NCBI RefSeq assembly: GCF_932294415.1
Contig: NC_065538.1
Span: 76,459,834 to 76,523,833, forward strand
Direction: 5' to 3'
DNA: 64,000 bases
Origin: Quercus robur
Taxonomy: Eukaryota; Streptophyta; Magnoliopsida; Fagales; Fagaceae
The translations under genes and the position numbers were made by a program. Positions 1,610-55,404 of this stretch are shown here, piece after piece (the stretch's first letter is position 1; every line of letters begins with the position of its first letter). The notes under the pieces are model-generated. The model had not been told where the DNA came from and ran no database searches. It saw only the letters and a list, made by a program, of their open reading frames with translations.

Positions 1610-4533
1610 ATGAGTTGTTTAGCATGGAACTATCGTGAGCTTGTGAACCTACATACAAGAAGAGAGCTTGTTGAAATTGTACAGGCAAAAGATCCCTCTA
1701 TGGTGTTTTTAGTCGAGACACTTATAGATGATGCAAGGCTAGAGTTTATTCAAAGGAGTATTGATTTTGATCACAGATGGGTTGTGCCAAGGGTGGGGAT
1801 TATATTAGTTCTCTATTGGAGAGCATTAATAAATTTAACAGTGTAAGGTTCAGACAAACATTATATTGATGCTGTGACTGATAAGAATATGGAAAATGAG
1901 TGGAGATTAACTGGTTTTTATAGTGAACCTGATACTGCAAGAAGACACAAAGCTTGGGATAATTTAAGTGCTCTAAACTCGTGACTTAAGAGGCCGTGGA
2001 TGTGTTACGGTGATTTTAAAGAAATTATTAGATGGATGAGAAAGTCGGAGGAGCAAGGCAACCTTACAACCAAATGCAGCAATTCAGGGAGGTGATTGAT
2101 GAGCGTGGTTTCATGGATTTAGGGTACGAGGGCTCAAAATATACTTGGAGTAGGCACTTTGAAATGGCAATTCAATATGGGAGAGACTTGATAGGTGCTT
2201 GGTTACAAACAGTTGGTTCATTAAATTTCTAGGATCATGGGTGCATCATTTGACATGCAATTCATCTGACCATGTTTCTATCTACAATTCACACTTGGGT
2301 TTGGATCCACCTATTTAGAAAAAGGTTTTGTTTCGAACAAATGTGGCTTTCAAATTTTGGTTATGAGGAAGTGGTCCATTCGGCCTAGAATAGTATTGAT
2401 GGAGTCGGGGTTGATGGAGAAATATTGGCTAAGGTTGATAAGTGGGGGAAAGATTTGAGTTGGTGGGATAAAAATGTCTTTGGCAATGTCCAAATGGAAT
2501 TAATTCGTTTGAAGAAATTACTAGCTAAAGAAGAAAGGGCGGCCATGCTTAGTGGGAATAATTTTCGGGTTAAACAAGTAAAGAAGGATAACGAGGTCTT
2601 GCAAGATAGAGAATCAACAATGTGGGCTCAACGGTCAAGGATACTATGAGCAAAGCAGGGAGATAGAAATACCAAATATTTCCATTGTTGTGCCATAAAG
2701 AGTTTTAGAATAAATTCAATGGAGGGAATCAGAGATGAGAGTGAAATATGGAGAGCTAAACAAGAGGAGATAGCTGTGGTTATGGTGAACTACTACAAGA
2801 CACTCTTTTCCTCTATTGAGAAAAGTGTCCCTCAAAGTGTGCTAGCTTGTGCGCCCACAGTTATCAGTGAGGAGATGAATGAAAGCCTTTGCCATGAGTT
2901 TGATGCAAGGGAAGTGGTTACAGCTCTACAACAAATGGTACCTCTCAAAGCTCCAGGCCTAGATGGTATGCCTCTGCCTTTTTATCAACATTATTGGAGC
3001 ATAGTAAATCACGATGTCACAACAACCATATTGTCATGGTTAAACTCAGGTACTATTCCTACAACCTTGAACCATACATACATCACACTTATTCCGAAAA
3101 CAAATTGTCATTTATATGCACACCAATTTCGACCCATCAATCTTTGTAATGTGCTTTACAAAATATATTCTAAAGTCCTTGCCAATCGACTGGAAAAATT
3201 ACTCCCATCCATTATCACAGAACATTAATCAACCTTTACCAAGGGTAGATTAATATTGGACAACATTTTGGTGGCTTTTGAAACCCTACATAGCATACAA
3301 AATTATAAATTGGGCACTTATGGATATATGACATTAAAATTAGATATGAGTAAGGTATATGATTGGGTTGAGTGGTATTTTTTAGAAGAGCTTACAAGGA
3401 AAATGGGTTTCAATGAAAGGTGGATAAATCTTGTAATGGGGTGTGTGAAAATAGTTTCTTATTCTGTTTTAGGAAATGGAGAGCCATGTGGTATGATTTA
3501 TTCTACTAGGGGGATTAGACAAGGAGACCCACTTTCCCCATTCCTTTTCCTACTTTGTACTAAAGGATTGAATGGATTGATCAAGAATGCAGAATTACAA
3601 GGAGATATTCATGGCTTCTCCCTTTGTAGGAGAGGTCCAAAACTAACACATCTGCCTTTTGTAGATGATAGTCATGGAAGAATGTGAAAAGGTGCTGGAA
3701 GTTCTAAATATCTATGAGGAGGCTTCGGGACAAAAAGTAAACAAGAGCAAAACATCTTTATTCTTTAGCAAATCTATCCCTGCCGAAGTGAAGCATTGAA
3801 TTAAGTTGGCTTTAGGAGTTCCAGAAATTATGCAATATGAAAGATATCTTGGGCTTCCTTCTTTCGTTGGCAAAGGGAAAAAAGAAATCTTCAACTACAT
3901 AAAGAAGAGGGTGTGGCAAAAACTTCAAGGATGGGAAGGTAAATTACTTTCTCAAGCAGGAAAGGGAGGTGCTCTTAAAGTCAGTCATACAAGCCATCCC
4001 TACATGCACAATGGGATGTTTCAAATTACTACTGGGTTTGTGTAATGAAATTGAAGCTCTAATCAAGAATTATTGGTGGGGACAAAGAGGAGACCGCAAA
4101 AAAATTCATTGGGTTAAATGGGAGGAGATGACAAAATCAAAAACAATTAGAGGTATGGGTTTTAAAGAACTTGCCATATTCAAAGACTCACTTTTAGGAA
4201 AGCAAGCCTAGCGATTTTTGCACAATAAAACATTATTCTTCTATAAGGTGTTCAAAGCACGTTTTTTCCTAAACACAACAATCATGGAGGCTGCTAATAC
4301 AAGGATGGGATCTTATGCTGGAAGAGTATCCTTAAAGGGAGAGATATCATTCAAAGGGGGGGGGGGGGCAATATGGAGGATAGGAAGTGGAGAAAATCTT
4401 AATATTTGGCAGCAACGTTGGTTGCAAAAGAAGCATCCACCACAGCAAACAATCTACCCCATGGAGAGCTTCGAAAACCACACAATAGACTCCCTGTTTG
4501 ATCCAATCATGAGACAATGGCATGAGGAATCGG
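1610..4533 (+). pseudogene. LINE ORF2 remnant (endonuclease plus reverse transcriptase)
   Basis: It begins MSCLAWNYRELVN, the usual start of plant LINE endonucleases (normally MSCLxWNCRGLGN). The endonuclease part is frameshifted; WRLTGFYSEPDTARRHKAWD is readable near 1900. The RT begins near 2719. It shows KAPGLDGMPLPFYQHYW and FRPINLCNVLYKIYSKVLANRL, then after a stop near 3227 the palm with LKLDMSKVYD, GIRQGDPLSPFLF and a catalytic box changed from FADD to FVDD (near 3660). Sequence after the RT (3806-4533) includes RYLGLPSFVGK and RIGSGENLNIWQQRWL. A run of ten G at 4357 lies in the last frame. Confidence 0.88.
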
Positions 4534-14092: not shown

Positions 14093-15945
14093 TTAACAGA
14101 ACTCAATGATTTTCTTCTTCTTCGGTGGACAAGATATAGCTATAAGACAACTTGAGGACCCTCTAGGAAAAGATAGTACTTGTTCCTGAACCTCCTGTTG
14201 CTTCTTTAAGCCATCTGCGTCTTCAAATTCCCAGGGATTAAAGGAAATAACCATCTTCTCTAAGATTGTTGCACTTTTAAGCAAAATCTTAACTGCAAGT
14301 AGCTCAATTTCTGATCCATTAAACATAGAGATTTCAATGGTCTTGAGGTGTGTCAAGAGACATCCAGGCACAGGATCCAAAGTCCAATCATATGTTCCAG
14401 AATAGCAGAGCATGCATGACAACTACATGGATAACAAAGAAGACAAATTTAAGTTGTAATAGCAATTGTTTATGCTAGTCAGAAACACACACAAAAAGAA
14501 AAAGAAAAAAGAGAGATTAAGTTCTAGAAGAGTTACCCCTTCAAACTTAAGGGAAGAAAGACAAGGTGACTTCCGGAGTATCGTCAGTAGTGCTTCACGT
14601 TGTTCTTTGTAGATCAAGACCACCCAATCAATATGTATATGAGTCAAACTATAAAACATAGGCAGATGGTCTAATAATTCGTCTGCATCAGCAAGAGACT
14701 AACACAAATATCATAATTCAAAAGAAATTCAGATGAACCTCTTAGGAAAATAATTGGATAAAATGAACAAAATCAAAGGAAAAATATTTCATCCGATTCA
14801 GGAAATAAACATACCTCACCTGCATTGTCATCTAGTTCTAGGCTCTTGGCATTAGAGAGCCCCCAAAGGAGCTTCAATTCACGATAACCAATTTTTCTGT
14901 CTCCATTATATGCCTGAAGATGTGCTTCAACGATTGAGGATGAGTCTTGAATGTGACAACCATGAACAAAATCACCCATGTAAGAAAAGTACTTCAGACT
15001 AGTCCCAAAAACCGCAAACTGACAACCATCTGAATCACATTGATCATCGGCATCATCACTTTGTTCATCTGAACTATATACGTCATCTATGTCATCATTA
15101 AGGTAAACCGGACTATTCTGATCATCTATGTTATCACTCTCATTATCTGAATCATTATTCTGGTCAACTGAATTATTCTCACCATCCTCGTCTTCCATAT
15201 CAGTACAATATGAAGGATCTTTTTCTTGTATGTACAATTTCTGAATCTTGGGACTGGAAATACAAACAGCCTTGACATTCTCCCAACTACAAAAAATTAA
15301 ATACAACTCCTCCAAGATGGAGCAAACTTTAAAGAGCTTTTGTGCTGAATGATCATCCGGAAATACAATGCGGATAAGAGTCAAGATCTTGAGATTTGAG
15401 AATGATACAAAAGAAGGAAGCTCAAGAAGATTGAGCATGTTGAGATGTAACTCTTGTAATGATTCACAACTAAAAAGGCAACTAGGCAACATGAATGGTT
15501 CTCCAATTTTATAAAGGCGAATATTTAATACTTGAACCTTATGCTTCACTGCAGCAGATATCCACGTAGTAATGCGAGACGAATCAGATAGGACATTGCA
15601 TGTGAGTGAGAAGTTTGTTATGGTTGAGGGTTCACGAAGCAAAAGAACTCTTTCCACAAAATCCATAAAGAGCTTCCTTTTATGTGGTGGCTCCTCAGCA
15701 TCAGTAAAATGATATGCCCCATCATGAAAATCAAGAACTGGGACTGACAACCATAAGTATTTCCACCTATTTGATATTATACTAGTTTTAGCAGCATCTT
15801 TTGTTGGAAGGAAGGACAGGATGTGTTGAACAATTGCATCTGCCAGATTGCCTATTCTATTTTCACCTTCACCCACATCATGTTCTTTGCTAAACTTTTG
15901 GTTCTTGGTGTTACATATTGAAGAACTTACATCCATTCTCTCCAT
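14093..15945 (-). CDS. F-box/LRR/FBD protein, gene A
   Basis: Probable substrate receptor of an SCF ubiquitin ligase. Exon 1 is 15945-14815 (377 codons), exon 2 14698-14537 (54 codons), exon 3 14422-14093 (109 codons plus stop). All junctions are phase 0 with GT/AG ends, giving about 540 residues. The F-box lies at residues 29-75 (NRIGNLADAIVQHILSFLP, then NRWKYLW). Degenerate leucine-rich repeats follow, and the last exon is an FBD-type end (DWTLDPVPGCLLTHLKTIEI; LLKSATILEKMVIS). An acidic Asp/Asn/Ser/Gln-rich stretch interrupts the LRR region at residues 249-307. The start is the ATG after the conserved GGAAACTAAAAGACT acceptor region. Family proteins bind SKP1 through the F-box; the target is unknown. 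A MITE separates its TATA box from the transcribed region. Confidence 0.9.
15025..15201 (-). repeat. Asp-rich coding insertion in gene A
   Basis: About 59 codons rich in GAT/AAT encode repeated DDQN, DNIDD and SDD motifs. On the plus strand this reads as degenerate ATCATC and TCATCTATG repeats. Genes C and D have only a few residues at this place, so the segment grew by expansion of an acidic trinucleotide or short-unit repeat. Confidence 0.85.
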
Positions 15946-15960: not shown

Positions 15961-16915
15961 CTAAGACACAATATACATTATCAAAGTGCTAAAACCAAAA
16001 AACTAATGGGAAGGAACACATGCATCCATTTGTACATGACGCCAAAAGAAAAATAAAATACAAAGTAATAAGAATTCAACGAGGAAAATTTATTCAAATT
16101 ATTACAATTATGAGATACTCCTTGCTCTGTATCTCATCTCATCACATTGACTCATGTCATGTTCTTCACTTGATAATTTTCCAATTGTCCCGAAAGCTTA
16201 GGCTGTTAGAAATTTGTGAATTTAATCGTTTAATCAAATGTTTAACACTCCCCCTTCATGTGTTAGCCTATACTTCCTCTTAATAAGGCCCAACACGTGG
16301 GACTTCCAACTTCTTATATGGGAGGTAAAGCAGAGGCAAATTTTGAAACTCAAGAGCACTTTCTCTAAAACCATGATAAATTACATATTGTCCCAAAAGG
16401 TTCGAACGTTGAGAAAGGGTGAATTTAATCATTATTATAAAATCGTTGACCTTTTGTTTTTGTTTCTAAAATTTGATCTTGGACACTTTATACATTTTTC
16501 TGATTCACTATGACATATCAAAATGCCAAAATAAGAAAAACAATAGGCAGGGACCCATGCATCCATTTATAAATAACATACCAAAAAAAAAACAAACAAA
16601 CAAACAAAAGAATTACAAAGCAAGTCAGCAAGAAGAGGATATAAAGAGCACAAACACATTGCATTTTTCACAAATATGAGGTCCTCTTGCCCTATATCCC
16701 ATCTTATCTGCCCCTTTTTTGACTAAAATTACATACCCACTTGACAGTTTTTGTTGTTCTCCAAAACAACAAATACAATTGACTATTTAGAAGCAGCCTT
16801 GGCTACACTGAACTATAACAGGACAAAAAATTAAGAACCCAGAAACCAAATTGAGTAATCAAGCTAAAAGAACGTAACTTTTTATATTTCAGAGAGAGAG
16901 AAAGAGAGAGAATAC
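15961..16915 (-). other. 5'UTR intron of gene A (predicted)
   Basis: On the minus strand the donor is GGAG|GTATTC (16916/16915) and the acceptor CTTAG|GGAAAC (15961/15960), 15 bases upstream of the ATG. The same arrangement is present in gene B, and a similar acceptor ahead of GGAAACC in C and D. The intron holds an internal duplication: a segment near 15950-16070 recurs at about 16500-16610. Confidence 0.65.
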
Positions 16916-17019
16916 CTCCGTGCATGAAGGTGGTGCTATTGAAGTCGCTGAGACCGAGAGAGAGTGAAAAGAGACTTTTATTAATTTCTTCTAATTCAGT
17001 TTTGATAGTGTGTATTCTC

Positions 17020-17863
17020 GGAGATTCTGGCATTTTACCCTTAATTTTTTAAAAAAATTGGCAATATGCCCCTGTTTGCAAACTATATAGGAGCGTGCCC
17101 CTGTTTTGATACTCGATTATCCTAAAATCGAGTTCAATTAAATACTCGATTTGTAGAAAATCGAGTTATGCCCGATCAAACTTAAAAAAATAAAAAATAA
17201 ATTTCCATGGAACTCGGGTTTCAGGAAATCGAGTTCCATGCAAAAAAAAATTTTTACAAGTGCAATTGCCCCATATTCAGGGAGACCTATAGTGGCGTTT
17301 CTAAGCCCTATAGTGACGTTTTAGATCCCTATAGCGGCGTTTTCATGCAAATTTTTTAAAGGGTAATTGGCCCATATTCAGGGTGCCCTATAGTGGCGTT
17401 TTTAATCCCTATAGTGACGTTTTAAGACACTATAGCAGCGTTTTCCTGCAAAAATTTTTTAGCATGTGTAATAATGCTTTGTTCTAGGTGTCCTATAGTG
17501 GCGTTTCTAGGCCCTATAGCGACGTTTTAGAGCCCTATAGCTGCGTTTTCCTGCAAAATTTTTTTAGTCCCATACCATCTTGAAGGGGCCCTATAGTGGC
17601 GTTTTTAAGCCCTATAGTGGCGTTTTTAATCCCTATAGCAGCGTTTTGGAACTCGACTTCCCTGAAATCGAGTTCCATGCTTTTTTTTTTTTTTTTTTTT
17701 TTAATTTATTCGGTATAACTCGATTTTCTACGAATCGAGTATTTCATTGAAACTCGATTTTAAGGTAATCAAGTATCGAAACAGGGACATATCCTTATAT
17801 TGTTTCGAAATAGGGGCATATTGCTTAATTTTTTAAAAATTAAGGACAAAAGGCTAGAATCTC
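17020..17863. mobile_element. Mutator-like MITE in the core promoter of gene A
   Basis: About 844 bp with inverted ends of roughly 150 bp: GAGATTCTGGCATTTTACCC at the left and its near-complement, ending AGAATCTC, at the right. Both arms carry the ACTCGATT...AATCGAGT motifs. It is flanked by an 11-bp direct repeat TGTGTATTCTC (17009-17019 and 17864-17874), in the size range for Mutator-type insertions (9-11 bp). The centre holds four degenerate units of about 100 bp, each with CCTATAGTGGCGTTT (near 17287, 17388, 17492 and 17589). There is no transposase. The homologous place in unit B (about 22090) lacks the element. Confidence 0.9.
17280..17650. repeat. Four internal units of about 100 bp in the MITE
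   Basis: Each unit has the pattern CCTATAGTGGCGTTT, CCCTATAG(T/C)GACGTTTT, CTATAGC(G/A/T)GCGTTTT, then a spacer with CATGCAAA or CCTGCAAAA. The array is bounded by the ACTCGA-rich inverted arms. Confidence 0.8.
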
Positions 17864-17874
17864 TGTGTATTCTC

Positions 17875-17882
17875 TATTTATA
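17875..17882 (-). promoter_or_regulatory. TATA box of gene A, displaced by the MITE
   Basis: The minus strand reads TATAAATA, matching the TATA box of gene B at 22094-22101 in the duplicated promoter. In A the MITE with its duplicated target begins directly downstream, so this TATA box is now about 860 bp from the original initiation region. Confidence 0.7.
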
Positions 17883-19392: not shown

Positions 19393-21187
19393 TCATAAGA
19401 AGAACTCGAGGCGTTTCTTCTCTTTTGGTGGACAAGATATGGCTATAAGACAATTCAATGATGCTCTAGGAAAAGATAGTATTTTTTCATGAGCCTCCTG
19501 TTGCTTCTTTAAGCCATCAGCATCTTTTAATTCCCAGGGATTAAAGGAAATAATAATCTTCTCTAAGACTGTTGCACTTTTAAGCAAAATCCTAACTGCA
19601 TGTAGCTCAATTTCTGATCCACAAAACATAGAGATTTCAATGGTCTTGAGGTGTGTCAAAAAACATCCAGGCACGGGATCCAAAGTCCAATCATATGTTC
19701 CAAAATAGCGGAACATGAATGACAACTACATGGATAACAAAGAACACAAATTTCAGTTGTAATAATAATAGTAAATAATGGTTAAAAAAGAAGTTTAGGT
19801 TCTAGCAGAGTTACCCCTTCAAACTTAAGGGAAGAAAGACAAGGAAACTTCTGGAGCATGGACAGCAGTAATTGACGACTGTAAAACAAGACCACCCAAT
19901 CAAAATGTACGTGGGTCAAACTATTAAACACAGGCAGATGGGCTACTAACTCGTCATCGAGGGCCTAGCACAAATATCACAATGCACACATCAGGAATTC
20001 AGATGAACCTCTTAGGAACAAAAATAAAATCAGGGAAAAATATTTCATCTAATAAAAAAATAGCAACATACCTTGACTGCAAACTGATCTAGTTTTAGGC
20101 TCTTGGCGTTAGAGAGCCCCCTGAGAAGCTTAAATGCACGATAATCAATTTTCCTGTCACTATAGCATGCCATAAGGTCTGCTTCCAGTATTGAGGATGA
20201 GTCTTGAATATAACAATCAAGAAAAAATCCACCGAAGTAAGAAAAGTACTTCAGAGTAGTCCCAAACACTGCAAATTGACAACCACCTGAATCACTCTGA
20301 TCATCTGTGTCATCACTTTGGTCATCCGAACTATGTTGATCATCTATGTCATCATTCTGATCATCTATGTTATCACTCTCATCATCTGAATCATCATTCT
20401 GGTCAACTGAATTATTCTCACCATCCATATCATCATCCGTAACATAATTGGGCGGAGGTTCTTTGTCTTCTATGTGCAATTTATGAATCCTGGGGCTAGA
20501 AATACAAACAGCCTTGACATTCTCCCAACTGCAAGAAATTAAATGCAACTCCTCCAAGATGGAGCAAACTTTAAAGAGCATTTGTGCAGAATGATCATCC
20601 GGAAATACAATGCGGATAAGTGTCAAGATCTTGAGACTTGAAAATGATACAAAAGAAGGAAGCTTGAGAGGATAATAAATATTGAGTTTTAACTCTTGTA
20701 ATGATTCACAGGTAAATAGGCAACAAGGCAATATGAATGGTTCTCGAATTTTATAAAGGCGAATATTTAAAACTTGAACCTTATGCTTCACTACAGCAGA
20801 TATCCACGTATTAATGCGAGACGAATCATTTAGCACATTGCATGTGAGTGAAAAGTTTGTTATGTTTGAGTAATCACGGAGCAAAAGAACTCTTTCCACA
20901 ATATCCATGAAGTGTTTCCTCTTATATGGTGGCTCATCAGAATCAGAATAATGATTTGCCCCATCATGAAAATCAAGAACTGGAATTGACAACCATAGGT
21001 ACGTCCACCTTTTTGATAGTATACTAGTTTTAGCAGCATCTTTTGTTGGAAGGAAGGACAGGATGTGTTGAGCAATTGTATCTGTCAGATTGCCTATTCT
21101 ATTTTCACCTTCACCCACATCATGTTCTTTGCTAAGCTTTTGGTTCTTGGCGTTATGTATCGAAGAACTTGCATCCACACCCTCCAT
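19393..21187 (-). CDS. F-box/LRR/FBD protein, gene B (paralogue of A)
   Basis: Exon 1 is 21187-20072 (372 codons), exon 2 19964-19815 (50 codons), exon 3 19725-19393 (110 codons plus stop). All junctions are phase 0 and the product is about 532 residues. The F-box (residues 29-75) keeps the family form TSILSKRWTYLW, where A has NRWKYLW. LRR-like segments follow (LPCCLFTCESLQELKLN, FSSLKILTLIRIVFPDDHSAQ), then an acidic insert at residues 251-302, then an FBD-type last exon (DWTLDPVPGCFLTHLKTIEI). Exon 2 is four codons shorter than in A. The promoter has an undisturbed TATA box. It is expected to act in an SCF ubiquitin ligase; the target is unknown. Confidence 0.9.
20282..20437 (-). repeat. 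Asp-rich coding insertion in gene B
   Basis: About 52 codons with repeated DDQ, DSDDES, NIDDQNDDIDDQ and QSDDTDDQSD motifs, at the same LRR position as in gene A but differing in length and order. The repeat has therefore kept changing since the duplication while staying in frame. Confidence 0.85.
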
Positions 21188-21999: not shown

Positions 22000-22093
22000 C
22001 TCAGTATATGTCATATGATGGTGGCGCTGGTGAAGCGGCTGAGAGAGTAAGGGGAAATGAGTTACAGAGACTTTTAGGGTTCGATTGAGTGTG

Positions 22094-22103
22094 TATTTAT
22101 ATA
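22094..22103 (-). promoter_or_regulatory. TATA box of gene B
   Basis: The minus strand reads TATATAAATA, about 100 bp upstream of the predicted 5'UTR donor, a sensible place for a plant core promoter. It is followed directly by CACACTCAATCG, the sequence into which the MITE inserted in copy A. Confidence 0.65.
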
Positions 22104-33425: not shown

Positions 33426-35798
33426 TTATAAATAATCCATCCGAGCAATCGACTGGGAATTAGGGAACTCCGATGGCGCTTTCGTGTACTTGGTTTCCCC
33501 ATAGGCTTGAGTCTGAGGACCATGCAATGCCTTGGTTCTGTCCAAAATTTTTTGTTTGGTTTCCCCAGAGGCTTGAGTCCGAGGACCATGCAATGCCTTG
33601 GTTCTGTCCAAAACTTGCATGCTTCTTTTTAAGTAGTTGGTTTCCCTAGAGGCTTGGGTCCGAGGACCATGCAAGGCCTTGGTTCTGTCCAAAACTTGTA
33701 TTCTTCCTTTTAAGTAGTTGGTTTCCCCAGAGGCTTGGGTCCGAGGACCATGCAAGGCCTTGGTTCTGTCCAAAACTTGTATGATTCTTTTTAAGTAGTT
33801 GGTTTCCCCAGAGGCTTGGGTCCGAGGACCATGCAAGGCCTTGGTTCTGTCCAAAACTTGCATGCTTCTTTTTAAGTAATTGGTTTCCCCAGAGGCTTGG
33901 GTCCGAGGACCATGCAAGGCCTTGGTTCTGTCCAAAACTTGCATGCTTCTTTTTAAGTAGTTGGTTTCCCCAGAGGCTTGAGTCCGAGGACCATGCAGGG
34001 CCTTGGTTCTGTCCAAAACTTGTATGATTCTTTTTAAGTAGTTGGTTTCCCCAGAGGCTTGGGTCCGAGGACCATGCAAGGCCTTGGTTCTGTCCAAAAC
34101 TTGCATGCTTCTTTTTAAGTAGTTGGTTTCCCCAGAGGCTTGGGTCCGAGGACCATGCAAGGCCTTGGTTCTGTCCAAAACTTGTATGATTCTTTTTAAG
34201 TAGTTGGTTTCCCCAGAAGCTTGGGTCCGAGGACCATGCAAGGCCTTGGTTCTGTCCAAAACTTGCATGCTTCTTTTTAAGTAGTTGGTTTCCCCAGAGG
34301 CTTGGGTCCGAGGACCATGCAAGGCCTTGGTTCTGTCCAAAACTTGCATGATTCTTTTTAAGTAGTTGGTTTCCCCAGAGGCTTGGGTCCGAGGACCATG
34401 CAAGGCCTTGGCTCTGTCCAAAACTTGCATGATTCTTTTTAAGTAGTTGGTTTCCCCAGAGGCTTGGGTCCGAAGACCATGCAAGGCTTTGGTTCTGTCC
34501 AAAACTTGCATGCTTCTTTTTAAGTAGTTGGTTTTCCCAGAGGCTTGGGTCCGAGGACCATGCAAGGCCTTGGTTCTGTCCAAAACTTGCATGCTTCTTT
34601 TTAAGTAGTTGGTTTCCCCAGAGGCTTGGGTCCGAGGACCATGCAAGGCCTTGGTTCTGTCCAAAACTTGTATGATTCTTTTTAAGTAGTTGGTTTCCCC
34701 AGAGGCTTGGGTCCGAGGACTATGCAAGGCCTTGGTTCTGTCCAAAACTTGCATGCTTCTTTTTAAGTAGTTGGTTTCCCCAGAGGCTTGGGTCCGAGGA
34801 CCATGCAAGGCCTTGGTTCTGTCCAAAACTTGCATGCTTCTTTTTAAGTAGTTGGTTTCCTCAGAGGCTTGGGTCCGAGGACCATGCAAGGCCTTGGTTC
34901 TGTCCAAAACTTGCATGCTTCTTTTTAAGTAGTTGGTTTCCCCAGAGGCTTGGGTCCGAGGACCATGCAAGGCCTTGGTTCTGTCCAAAACTTGCATGCT
35001 TCTTTTTAAGTAGTTGGTTTCCCTAGAGGCTTGGGTCCGAGGACCATGCAAGGCCTTGGTTCTGTCCAAAACTTGCATGATTCTTTTTAAGTAGTTGGTT
35101 TCCCCAGAGGCTTGGGTCCGAGGACCATGCAAGGCCTTGGCTCTGTCCAAAACTTGCATGATTCTTTTTAAGTAGTTGGTTTCCCCAGAGGCTTGGGTCC
35201 GAGGACCATGCAAGGCCTTGGTTCTGTCCAAAACTTGCATGCTTCTTTTTAAGTAGTTGGTTTCCTCAGAGGCTTGGGTCCGAGGACCATGCAAGGCCTT
35301 GGTTCTGTCCAAAACTTGCATGCTTCTTTTTAAGTAGTTGGTTTCCCCAGAGGCTTGGGTCCGAGGACCATGCAAGGCCTTGGTTCTGTCCAAAACTTGT
35401 ATGATTCTTTTTAAGTAGTTGGTTTCCCCAGAGGCTTGGGTCCGAGGACCATGCAAGGCCTTGGTTCTGTCCAAAACTTGCATGCTTCTTTTTAAGTAGT
35501 TGGTTTCCCCAGAGGCTTGGGTCCGAGGACCATGCAAGGCCTTGGTTCTGTCCAAAACTTGCATGCTTCTTTTTAAGTAGTTGGTTTCCGCAGAGGCTTG
35601 GGTCCGAGGACCATGCAAGGCCTTAGTTCTGTCCAAAACTTGCATGCTTCTTTTTAAGTAGTTGGTTTCCCCAGAGGCTTGGGTCCGAGGACCATGCAAG
35701 GCCTTGGTTCTGTCCAAAACTTGCATGCTTCTTTTTAAGTAGTTGGTTTCCCTAGAGGCTTGGGTCCGAGGACCATGCAAGGCCTTGGTTCTGTCCAA
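33426..35798 (-). CDS. 790-codon repetitive open frame from an 81-bp array
   Basis: About 29 copies of a 27-residue unit, consensus around VLDRTKALHGPRTQASGETN followed by YLKRSMQ. Variation is limited to a few positions (S/I before M or I, G/R/E/A before ETNY, and isolated changes). The unit is basic and has no known fold that I recognise. The frame lies on the sense strand of the element, about 260 bp downstream of the primer-binding site, where gag would be. The first in-frame ATG falls in the second unit; 35798 itself is TTG, and a stop lies upstream. Whether it is translated is unknown. A recent array with an 81-bp period stays open by default if one unit is open. Confidence 0.4.
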   Translation of the reverse strand: MDRTKALHGPRTQASRETNYLKRSMQVLDRTKALHGPRTQASGETNYLKRSMQVLDRTKALHGPRTQASAETNYLKRSMQVLDRTKALHGPRTQASGETNYLKRSMQVLDRTKALHGPRTQASGETNYLKRIIQVLDRTKALHGPRTQASGETNYLKRSMQVLDRTKALHGPRTQASEETNYLKRSMQVLDRTKALHGPRTQASGETNYLKRIMQVLDRAKALHGPRTQASGETNYLKRIMQVLDRTKALHGPRTQASRETNYLKRSMQVLDRTKALHGPRTQASGETNYLKRSMQVLDRTKALHGPRTQASEETNYLKRSMQVLDRTKALHGPRTQASGETNYLKRSMQVLDRTKALHSPRTQASGETNYLKRIIQVLDRTKALHGPRTQASGETNYLKRSMQVLDRTKALHGPRTQASGKTNYLKRSMQVLDRTKALHGLRTQASGETNYLKRIMQVLDRAKALHGPRTQASGETNYLKRIMQVLDRTKALHGPRTQASGETNYLKRSMQVLDRTKALHGPRTQASGETNYLKRIIQVLDRTKALHGPRTQASGETNYLKRSMQVLDRTKALHGPRTQASGETNYLKRIIQVLDRTKALHGPRTQASGETNYLKRSMQVLDRTKALHGPRTQASGETNYLKRSMQVLDRTKALHGPRTQASGETNYLKRIIQVLDRTKALHGPRTQASGETNYLKGRIQVLDRTKALHGPRTQASRETNYLKRSMQVLDRTKALHGPRTQASGETKQKILDRTKALHGPQTQAYGETKYTKAPSEFPNSQSIARMDYL

Positions 35799-35815
35799 AA
35801 CTTGTATGATTCTTT
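33480..35815. repeat. 81-bp tandem array, about 29 units
   Basis: The plus-strand unit runs TTGGTTTCCCCAGAGGCTTG, GGTCCGAGGACCATGCAAGG, CCTTGGTTCTGTCCAAAACT, then TGCATGCTTCTTTTTAAGTAG. Units are nearly identical. Two alternating forms of the spacer (TGCATGCTTC and TGTATGATTC/TGCATGATTC) point to amplification in multi-unit blocks. The leftmost units (33480-33620) are the most diverged and one is shortened. Confidence 0.95.
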
Positions 35816-54178: not shown

Positions 54179-54810
54179 TGTTTATATGGAAAATGTTGAA
54201 AGTGGCACTACAAATTTAATACATAAAATTTACAAACCGACATAACAATGAATGTCATAATTTATAACAGTAATGCTACAACCTATAGTTACAAACTATT
54301 TTACAGCAATTTTAGAAACTATTAATGTGTCAAATTCTTAACAGTTTTCATTTAGGTTCACCACTAACATCACCTTTATATTTATCAATAATCATTCACC
54401 ACATCAACAGTTTATAAAATAGTTTGGGACTTTAGCATTACTTAATTTATAGTATCTTTAACATCACTTTTTAATACAAACAAAATAAATTCTCACAAAT
54501 TTTTGCAATAGTCAGAGATGTCAACCCATCATAAGTCAAACTAAGATAATAAAAAATAAAGAAATATTAGACCTAGAACCACAACTCAAAACAAGAATAT
54601 TGTGAGATTTTGTGGTGTCCCTCGACTTTCTCAAGATAAAAATGGTATATTTAGTTGGAGAAATTATTCTAAAAACTATTCATAGAAAAAAAGTTTCTAT
54701 GCAATAGATTATATGGTTTCATATGGAAAAAGAATTTGGTATTTTATAAATCTAATATATATATCCTTCCTCTCAATGACAACATATGGATCTTAAATGA
54801 CTATAGACCC

Positions 54811-55371
54811 TACATTATACAAATAAGATAATGTATAGATTCTTGAGATAATTGTTGACATGGGAGACCTAAAAGGATGTCACCTTTATTTGAGTGGAAT
54901 GTGTAGTATATTGATTGACCAAGAGTTGACACGTTTAAAAGTTATGTCCTTACAATTATCATTTGTTATATATGAGCAATTGTAAAAAATGATTCAAAGT
55001 GTCGTCGTCGTCGTTTGAAACATTCTCACACAAATGTATATACACCATCTAAAAAAGTAATTTGTTGCAAAATATTGCCCCCCCCCCCCCCTACATTATT
55101 CAAATAAGATAATGTATAGATTCTTGAGATAATTGTTGTCGTGGGAGACCTAAAAGGATGTCACCTTTATTTGAGTGGAATGTGTAGTATATTGATTGAC
55201 CAAGAGTTGACACGTTTAAAAGTTATGTCCTTACAATTATCATTTGTTATATATGAGCAATTGTAAAAAATGATTCAAAGTGTTGTCGTTGTCGTTTGAA
55301 ACATTCTCACACAAACATATATACACCATCTAAAAAAGTAATTTGTTGCAAAATATTGCCCCCCCCCCCCC
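54811..55371. repeat. 281-bp direct tandem duplication with poly-C junction
   Basis: Copy 1 is 54811-55091 and copy 2 55092-55371. Both start TACATTAT and end in a long C run (ATATTGCCCCCC...). Unit 1 has a single copy with a mixed CCTCCCCCTCCCC run. Short C homology at the edges probably allowed the duplication. Confidence 0.9.
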
Positions 55372-55404
55372 CTTCCCCTCTGAAACTATCACATATATAA
55401 CCAA

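Follow-up and report, generated by a model that had tools for sequence, protein, structure and literature searches.

A Mutator-like miniature element separates the TATA box from the leader of one of two tandem oak F-box genes

In the maize mutant hcf106::Mu1, described by Barkan and Martienssen in 1991 and cited in PMC4287451 and PMC5765357, an outward-reading end of Mu1 reportedly gives the gene a substitute transcription start. In citrus, a 786-bp hAT miniature inverted-repeat transposable element (MITE) blocks expression from the S-RNase promoter, and a transgene lacking this MITE was expressed about 20-fold more strongly in two of three flowering lines (PMC11022811). Two further sources link promoter MITEs to methylation (a review, PMC12595863) and give maize Mu an insertion preference near transcription start sites (PMC2774946). 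Here we describe a 64,000-nucleotide stretch of the Quercus robur genome (786 Mb in 42 contigs), hereafter the window (G000:C5:76459834-76523833), in which a Mutator-like MITE lies between the TATA box and the leader of gene A, one of a tandem pair of F-box genes, A and B, both on the minus strand and spaced by about 5 kb. From the sequence we tentatively favour, at a little under an even chance, the reading that A is alive through a substitute start past the hairpin of the element, with an outward-facing TATATAG of the element as the best candidate. The features around the insertion are as follows, in window positions.

17875..17882, minus strand: gene A TATA box, TATAAATA, 10 bp upstream of the element, with TATAAAT kept at the matching place in B
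17865..17874, no strand: target site duplication on the TATA-box side, GTGTATTCTC on the plus strand, from the fixed-end test
17020..17864, no strand: non-autonomous Mutator-like element (MITE), 845 bp, with inverted arms of about 220 bp and a 101-bp internal repeat in four copies
17010..17019, no strand: target site duplication on the exon 1 side, GTGTATTCTC on the plus strand, from the fixed-end test
22094..22101, minus strand: gene B TATA box, TATAAATA, directly followed by the empty site

The element is a non-autonomous Mutator-like MITE. Its terminal inverted repeats, as expected of a Mutator-like element, are long (about 220 bp, 81% alike) and enclose the four 101-bp repeats, and it has the noncoding sequence, many copies and uniform length of a MITE. 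The longest frames lying wholly within 17020-17864 have 60 amino acids. Its length is great for a MITE, a class whose size limits vary; its ends (GGAGATTCT) may resemble those of Mu (GAGATA...). A genome search with the element, in which the best 40 among 2182 first-look candidates were scored, gave 41 long matches, one of them A's own, and hence at least 40 other long copies, the closest of which among the matches listed are 90% identical to A's. These 40 copies were taken with their flanks and their ends set at GGAGATTCT and AGAATCTCC (n = 41 with A). Most (37 of 40) measure 792-875 bp and the remaining three 758, 769, and 913 bp, a count that shorter copies would escape because the copies were picked as best matches. 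For the pattern of one element end the genome has 102 exact matches, and for its reversed control it has 0. Some of these matches recur in steps of about 30 kb on G000:C40 (5869313, 5899421, 5929532) and others form a row of four on G000:C4 (75205032, 75276218, 75470142, 75664297; intervals of about 71, 194, and 194 kb), a pattern suggestive of larger duplications that carried them along.

With the ends of the copies fixed, the target duplication is 10 bp, within the range of about 8-11 bp usual for Mutator-like elements: of the 41 copies, 26 have it perfect and 34 with no more than one mismatch, and the flanks agree one base further in only three. An earlier reading of the letters alone (the sequence-only reading) had proposed an 11-bp duplication and an 844-bp element, both of which the 41-copy alignment corrects, to 10 bp and 845 bp (17020-17864). 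The base that follows GAATCTC is C in 39 copies, A in one, and T in that of gene A (17864), so the duplication looks 11 bp long through a chance match of this extra T. A C formerly at 17864 would have formed a CpG together with the duplication's first base, so that the change is consistent with methylation of this CpG followed by deamination. GAGAATACACA matches the window exactly at two places only, 17009-17019 and 17864-17874 on the minus strand, and two others match with one mismatch. The sequences quoted in that reading all lie in the window where it had placed them; the element does adjoin the TATA box, at a measured 10 bp from the end of TATAAATA instead of about 12 bp, and its description as a Mutator-like MITE with a target duplication is borne out by a repeat family with common ends and duplicated flanks.

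Gene B has no element at the matching site. Its promoter, TATAAATACACACTCAATC at 22083-22101 on the minus strand, is the sole window match at up to two mismatches, with none in 100 shuffles. When the element and one duplicate are removed, A aligns to B upstream (GTCTTTCGCGG.CAACATGAAATT) and downstream (TCTCAGC..CTTCA), and the two genes have a similar splice-donor context downstream of the insertion site. The return of A/B homology on both sides, with no element in B, supports two further claims of the sequence-only reading, namely that the insertion parts the TATA box from the leader that follows it and that B is an empty paralogous site. A shorter global alignment, made with an altered gap cost, puts the TATAAAT of A in register with that of B amid poorly conserved sequence; a longer MAFFT alignment did not bring the TATA boxes together. 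The two genes differ by 5 bp right at the insertion site, where A has five extra bases beside the box. A genome DNA search with the promoter and leader of B matched B and A only and found no further relatives with this promoter. Because the empty site aligns on both sides and the search finds only these two genes, the insertion most likely occurred in the A lineage after the tandem duplication; a clean loss of the element from B is less likely.

Based on F-box domains of 29.5 bits in A and 27.7 in B (Pfam cut-off 20.5) and LRR_At5g56370 domains of 46 and 40.2 bits (cut-off 27), A and B are probable members of the FBD-type F-box gene family, their last exons being assigned by translation only. 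They lie in a cluster (C5:76.31-76.60 Mb) of 15 such F-box genes and one broken fragment, every one on the minus strand, and are mutual nearest relatives, with proteins 78% identical to each other and 54% to the next protein. The parts of the two genes are as follows.

16916..17009, minus strand: gene A, remainder of the inferred noncoding exon 1, ending CACGGAG/GTATTC, by homology to B
15961..16915, minus strand: gene A, inferred 5' leader intron, with splice motifs common to A and B and about 800 aligned sites
14773..15945, minus strand: gene A, main coding exon, open, F-box and LRR_At5g56370, 3' end overrunning the inferred donor
14093..14422, minus strand: gene A, last exon, frame open, upstream boundary approximate
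22000..22069, minus strand: gene B, inferred exon 1, predicted from TATA distance and shared splice motifs
20045..21187, minus strand: gene B, main coding exon, open, F-box and LRR_At5g56370, 3' end overrunning the inferred donor
19393..19725, minus strand: gene B, last exon, frame open, upstream boundary approximate

The leader introns of A and B have diverged by 0.195 (802 sites), or about 0.10 per lineage. Compared with the family majority, the element of A has changes at 58 of 840 aligned sites, including 16 private ones, and only three of the 40 other copies are more divergent; the terminal branch of A's element is 0.074. Set against the divergence per lineage, this branch places the insertion after the A/B duplication and makes a recent date improbable.

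The coding frames of A are open. We simulated an unconstrained A over the 1434 nt of its two exons, with 4000 runs per divergence (d). At d of 0.0095, 0.019, 0.035, 0.05, and 0.074, the probability of intactness was 0.13, 0.018, 0.00075, 0.00025, and 0 with the insertion-deletion (indel) rate of the intron; 0.27, 0.070, 0.007, 0.0005, and 0.0005 with half that rate; and 0.54, 0.31, 0.12, 0.044, and 0.016 with substitutions alone. These low odds argue for a useful A during some of the time after insertion, an argument that is weak for a young insertion and strong for an old one. Measured against nine outgroups, the protein of A has not clearly evolved faster than that of B: A has 13 derived replacements and B 12, with 56 of the 81 differing sites undetermined. 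Together with the open frames, this argues mildly against a long-dead A. The pairwise dN/dS of 0.54 over 471 codons also speaks for an A that has been kept alive.

What the insertion would do to the transcript can be predicted by placing the start 32 bp from the first T of a TATA box, the usual spacing. The old TATA box would then start B near 22069 and A near 17850, about 15 nt inside the element. Spliced at the motifs shared by A and B, the predicted leader of A is 950 nt long, would hold nearly the whole hairpin and has 14 upstream ATGs, of which the element supplies 13; that of B is 85 nt long with a single upstream ATG opening a frame of seven codons. As gene-strand RNA the element folds at -334.8 kcal/mol, compared with a mean of -173.8 for 20 shuffles (z = -27). 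With such a hairpin and so many upstream ATGs, the leader should translate badly and could yield double-stranded RNA, making it prone to small-RNA production.

A start downstream of the hairpin would avoid this leader, and the element itself contains a candidate motif for it.

17083..17089, minus strand: TATATAG facing gene A in the exon-proximal arm, candidate substitute TATA box, present in 38 of 41 copies

The start predicted from TATATAG falls near 17057 and gives a 157-nt leader, and the 10-bp block around the motif is 99% conserved, compared with 93% for the arm overall. We propose that A may still be functional and expressed, probably weakly or in an altered pattern, from a start downstream of the hairpin, the best candidate being this one, much as from the outward-reading ends of maize Mu1. 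The stronger version, in which the element gave A a new core promoter so that A moved to the transposon's TATA box with a new expression pattern and B kept the old one, appears doubtful to us; if true, the approximately 100 exact end copies would make the family a supply of portable promoters.

Several points weigh against a living A started at TATATAG. The motif may have been kept by common descent alone; another block of the arm is 100% conserved. The predicted start sites come solely from TATA distance. A start at 17057 leaves two upstream ATGs whose frames overlap the main open reading frame (ORF) in a different register. One of the two is native to exon 1 of A (ATGCACGGAG, 16916-16925), and once the inferred splice is made its frame runs across the main start out of register, so that the splice model must be in error or A must be poorly translated regardless of the element; the seven-codon frame of B lies near the matching place. 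A has 21 residues common to no outgroup and B has 15, which tilts slightly against equal constraint. The intactness odds soften with fewer indels, to 0.070 (half rate) and 0.31 (substitutions only) at d of 0.019. The age may lie below 0.019, which is no firm lower bound given that the private changes may predate the insertion, and at d of 0.0095 the intactness probability is 0.13. The pairwise A/B coding divergence (synonymous dS 0.213, nonsynonymous dN 0.115, dN/dS 0.54 over 471 codons) blends the time before and after the insertion. B had also been offered as the "before" of a natural before/after pair; the empty site holds, but a dS of 0.21, several leader indels, and differing upstream ORFs make B an imperfect control.

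The same hairpin leader would fit a gene A that is silenced or nearly so, its core promoter split, its hairpin drawing RNA-directed methylation, and its frame open only because the insertion is fairly young. We consider this unlikely, though it has real points in its favour: the fold and the 14 upstream ATGs, the perfect 10-bp duplication at this insertion, the 21 against 15 residues common to no outgroup, and the frequent repression by promoter MITEs that PMC11022811 and PMC12595863 describe. It sits less well with the open frames, the near-equal derived replacements, and the low simulated intactness of a gene unconstrained since d of 0.019 or more when indels are included. C-to-T changes of the CG type affect five of 72 sites in A's element and are exceeded in 14 of the 40 other copies; at this ordinary level there is no special sign of methylation in the sequence.

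The working promoter may instead be untouched. The TATA box might serve neither gene, in which case something else, such as the leader intron, would determine the start and the insertion would change little; plant introns can influence the start site, according to PMC6760150, which cites Gallegos and Rose 2017. We regard this as quite improbable, because TATAAAT is kept at the matching A/B place amid poorly conserved surroundings and because TTNGATYTG, the motif of stimulating introns, has eight window matches but none in the leader intron of A or B. In its favour, TATAWA near family insertions is not rare by chance: among the other copies it occurs within 60 bp in 15 of 80 flanks toward the element and 18 of 80 away from it, and base shuffles gave a mean of 12.2 (standard deviation 3.0), 104 of 500 reaching 15. 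These counts show no targeting of TATA boxes by the family, and that reading is rejected. The proximity of a TATA box is thus a weak argument in itself, and what supports A's box is that it is conserved at the corresponding place in B. No less improbable is a start at the old TATA box or a little way into the element, if splicing removes or skips the element or a long leader tolerates it. The intact TATAAATA so near the element, the start predicted near 17850, and acceptor-like TTTTGCAG motifs seen by eye in the element repeats on the minus strand speak for it, but if retained the hairpin and the 14 upstream ATGs should hinder scanning. Between these alternatives we continue to prefer a start downstream of the hairpin.

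Elsewhere in the window, an 81-bp tandem array at 33556-35815 (27.9 copies, 97% matches) keeps open a minus-strand frame of 766 amino acids (33426-35726), a probable consequence of a repeat length divisible by three. A 281-bp unit forms two tandem copies at 54808-55373 (97% matches), and a plus-strand frame of 169 amino acids at 2719-3228 resembles by eye part of a long interspersed nuclear element (LINE) reverse transcriptase, making it a candidate for one.

No title or abstract opening in our literature search names the insertion in A, which is no proof of absence. The insertion is a clear new example of a kind of event that is well known in plants, and its interest therefore hinges on the transcript result: a base-precise split of the core promoter in one of two tandem genes can test a borrowed promoter against a downstream start and against loss. 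As in maize hcf106::Mu1, the insert stands at the 5' end of the gene with a TATA-like motif facing it; the effect there is said to have been demonstrated experimentally, whereas here a diverged MITE copy is known from its sequence alone. Like the citrus S-RNase case of PMC11022811, a MITE of similar size occupies the promoter of one copy next to an insertion-free counterpart, there an allele; that element is a hAT with an effect proven by transgenes, in contrast to the Mutator-like element at the core promoter described here. According to PMC2774946, maize Mu is likewise a Mutator-type element with long inverted arms (about 215 bp) found at gene 5' ends, with 9-bp duplications compared with 10 bp for the oak element; Mu prefers start sites, whereas the oak family shows no preference for TATA boxes, the feature compared here in place of start sites.
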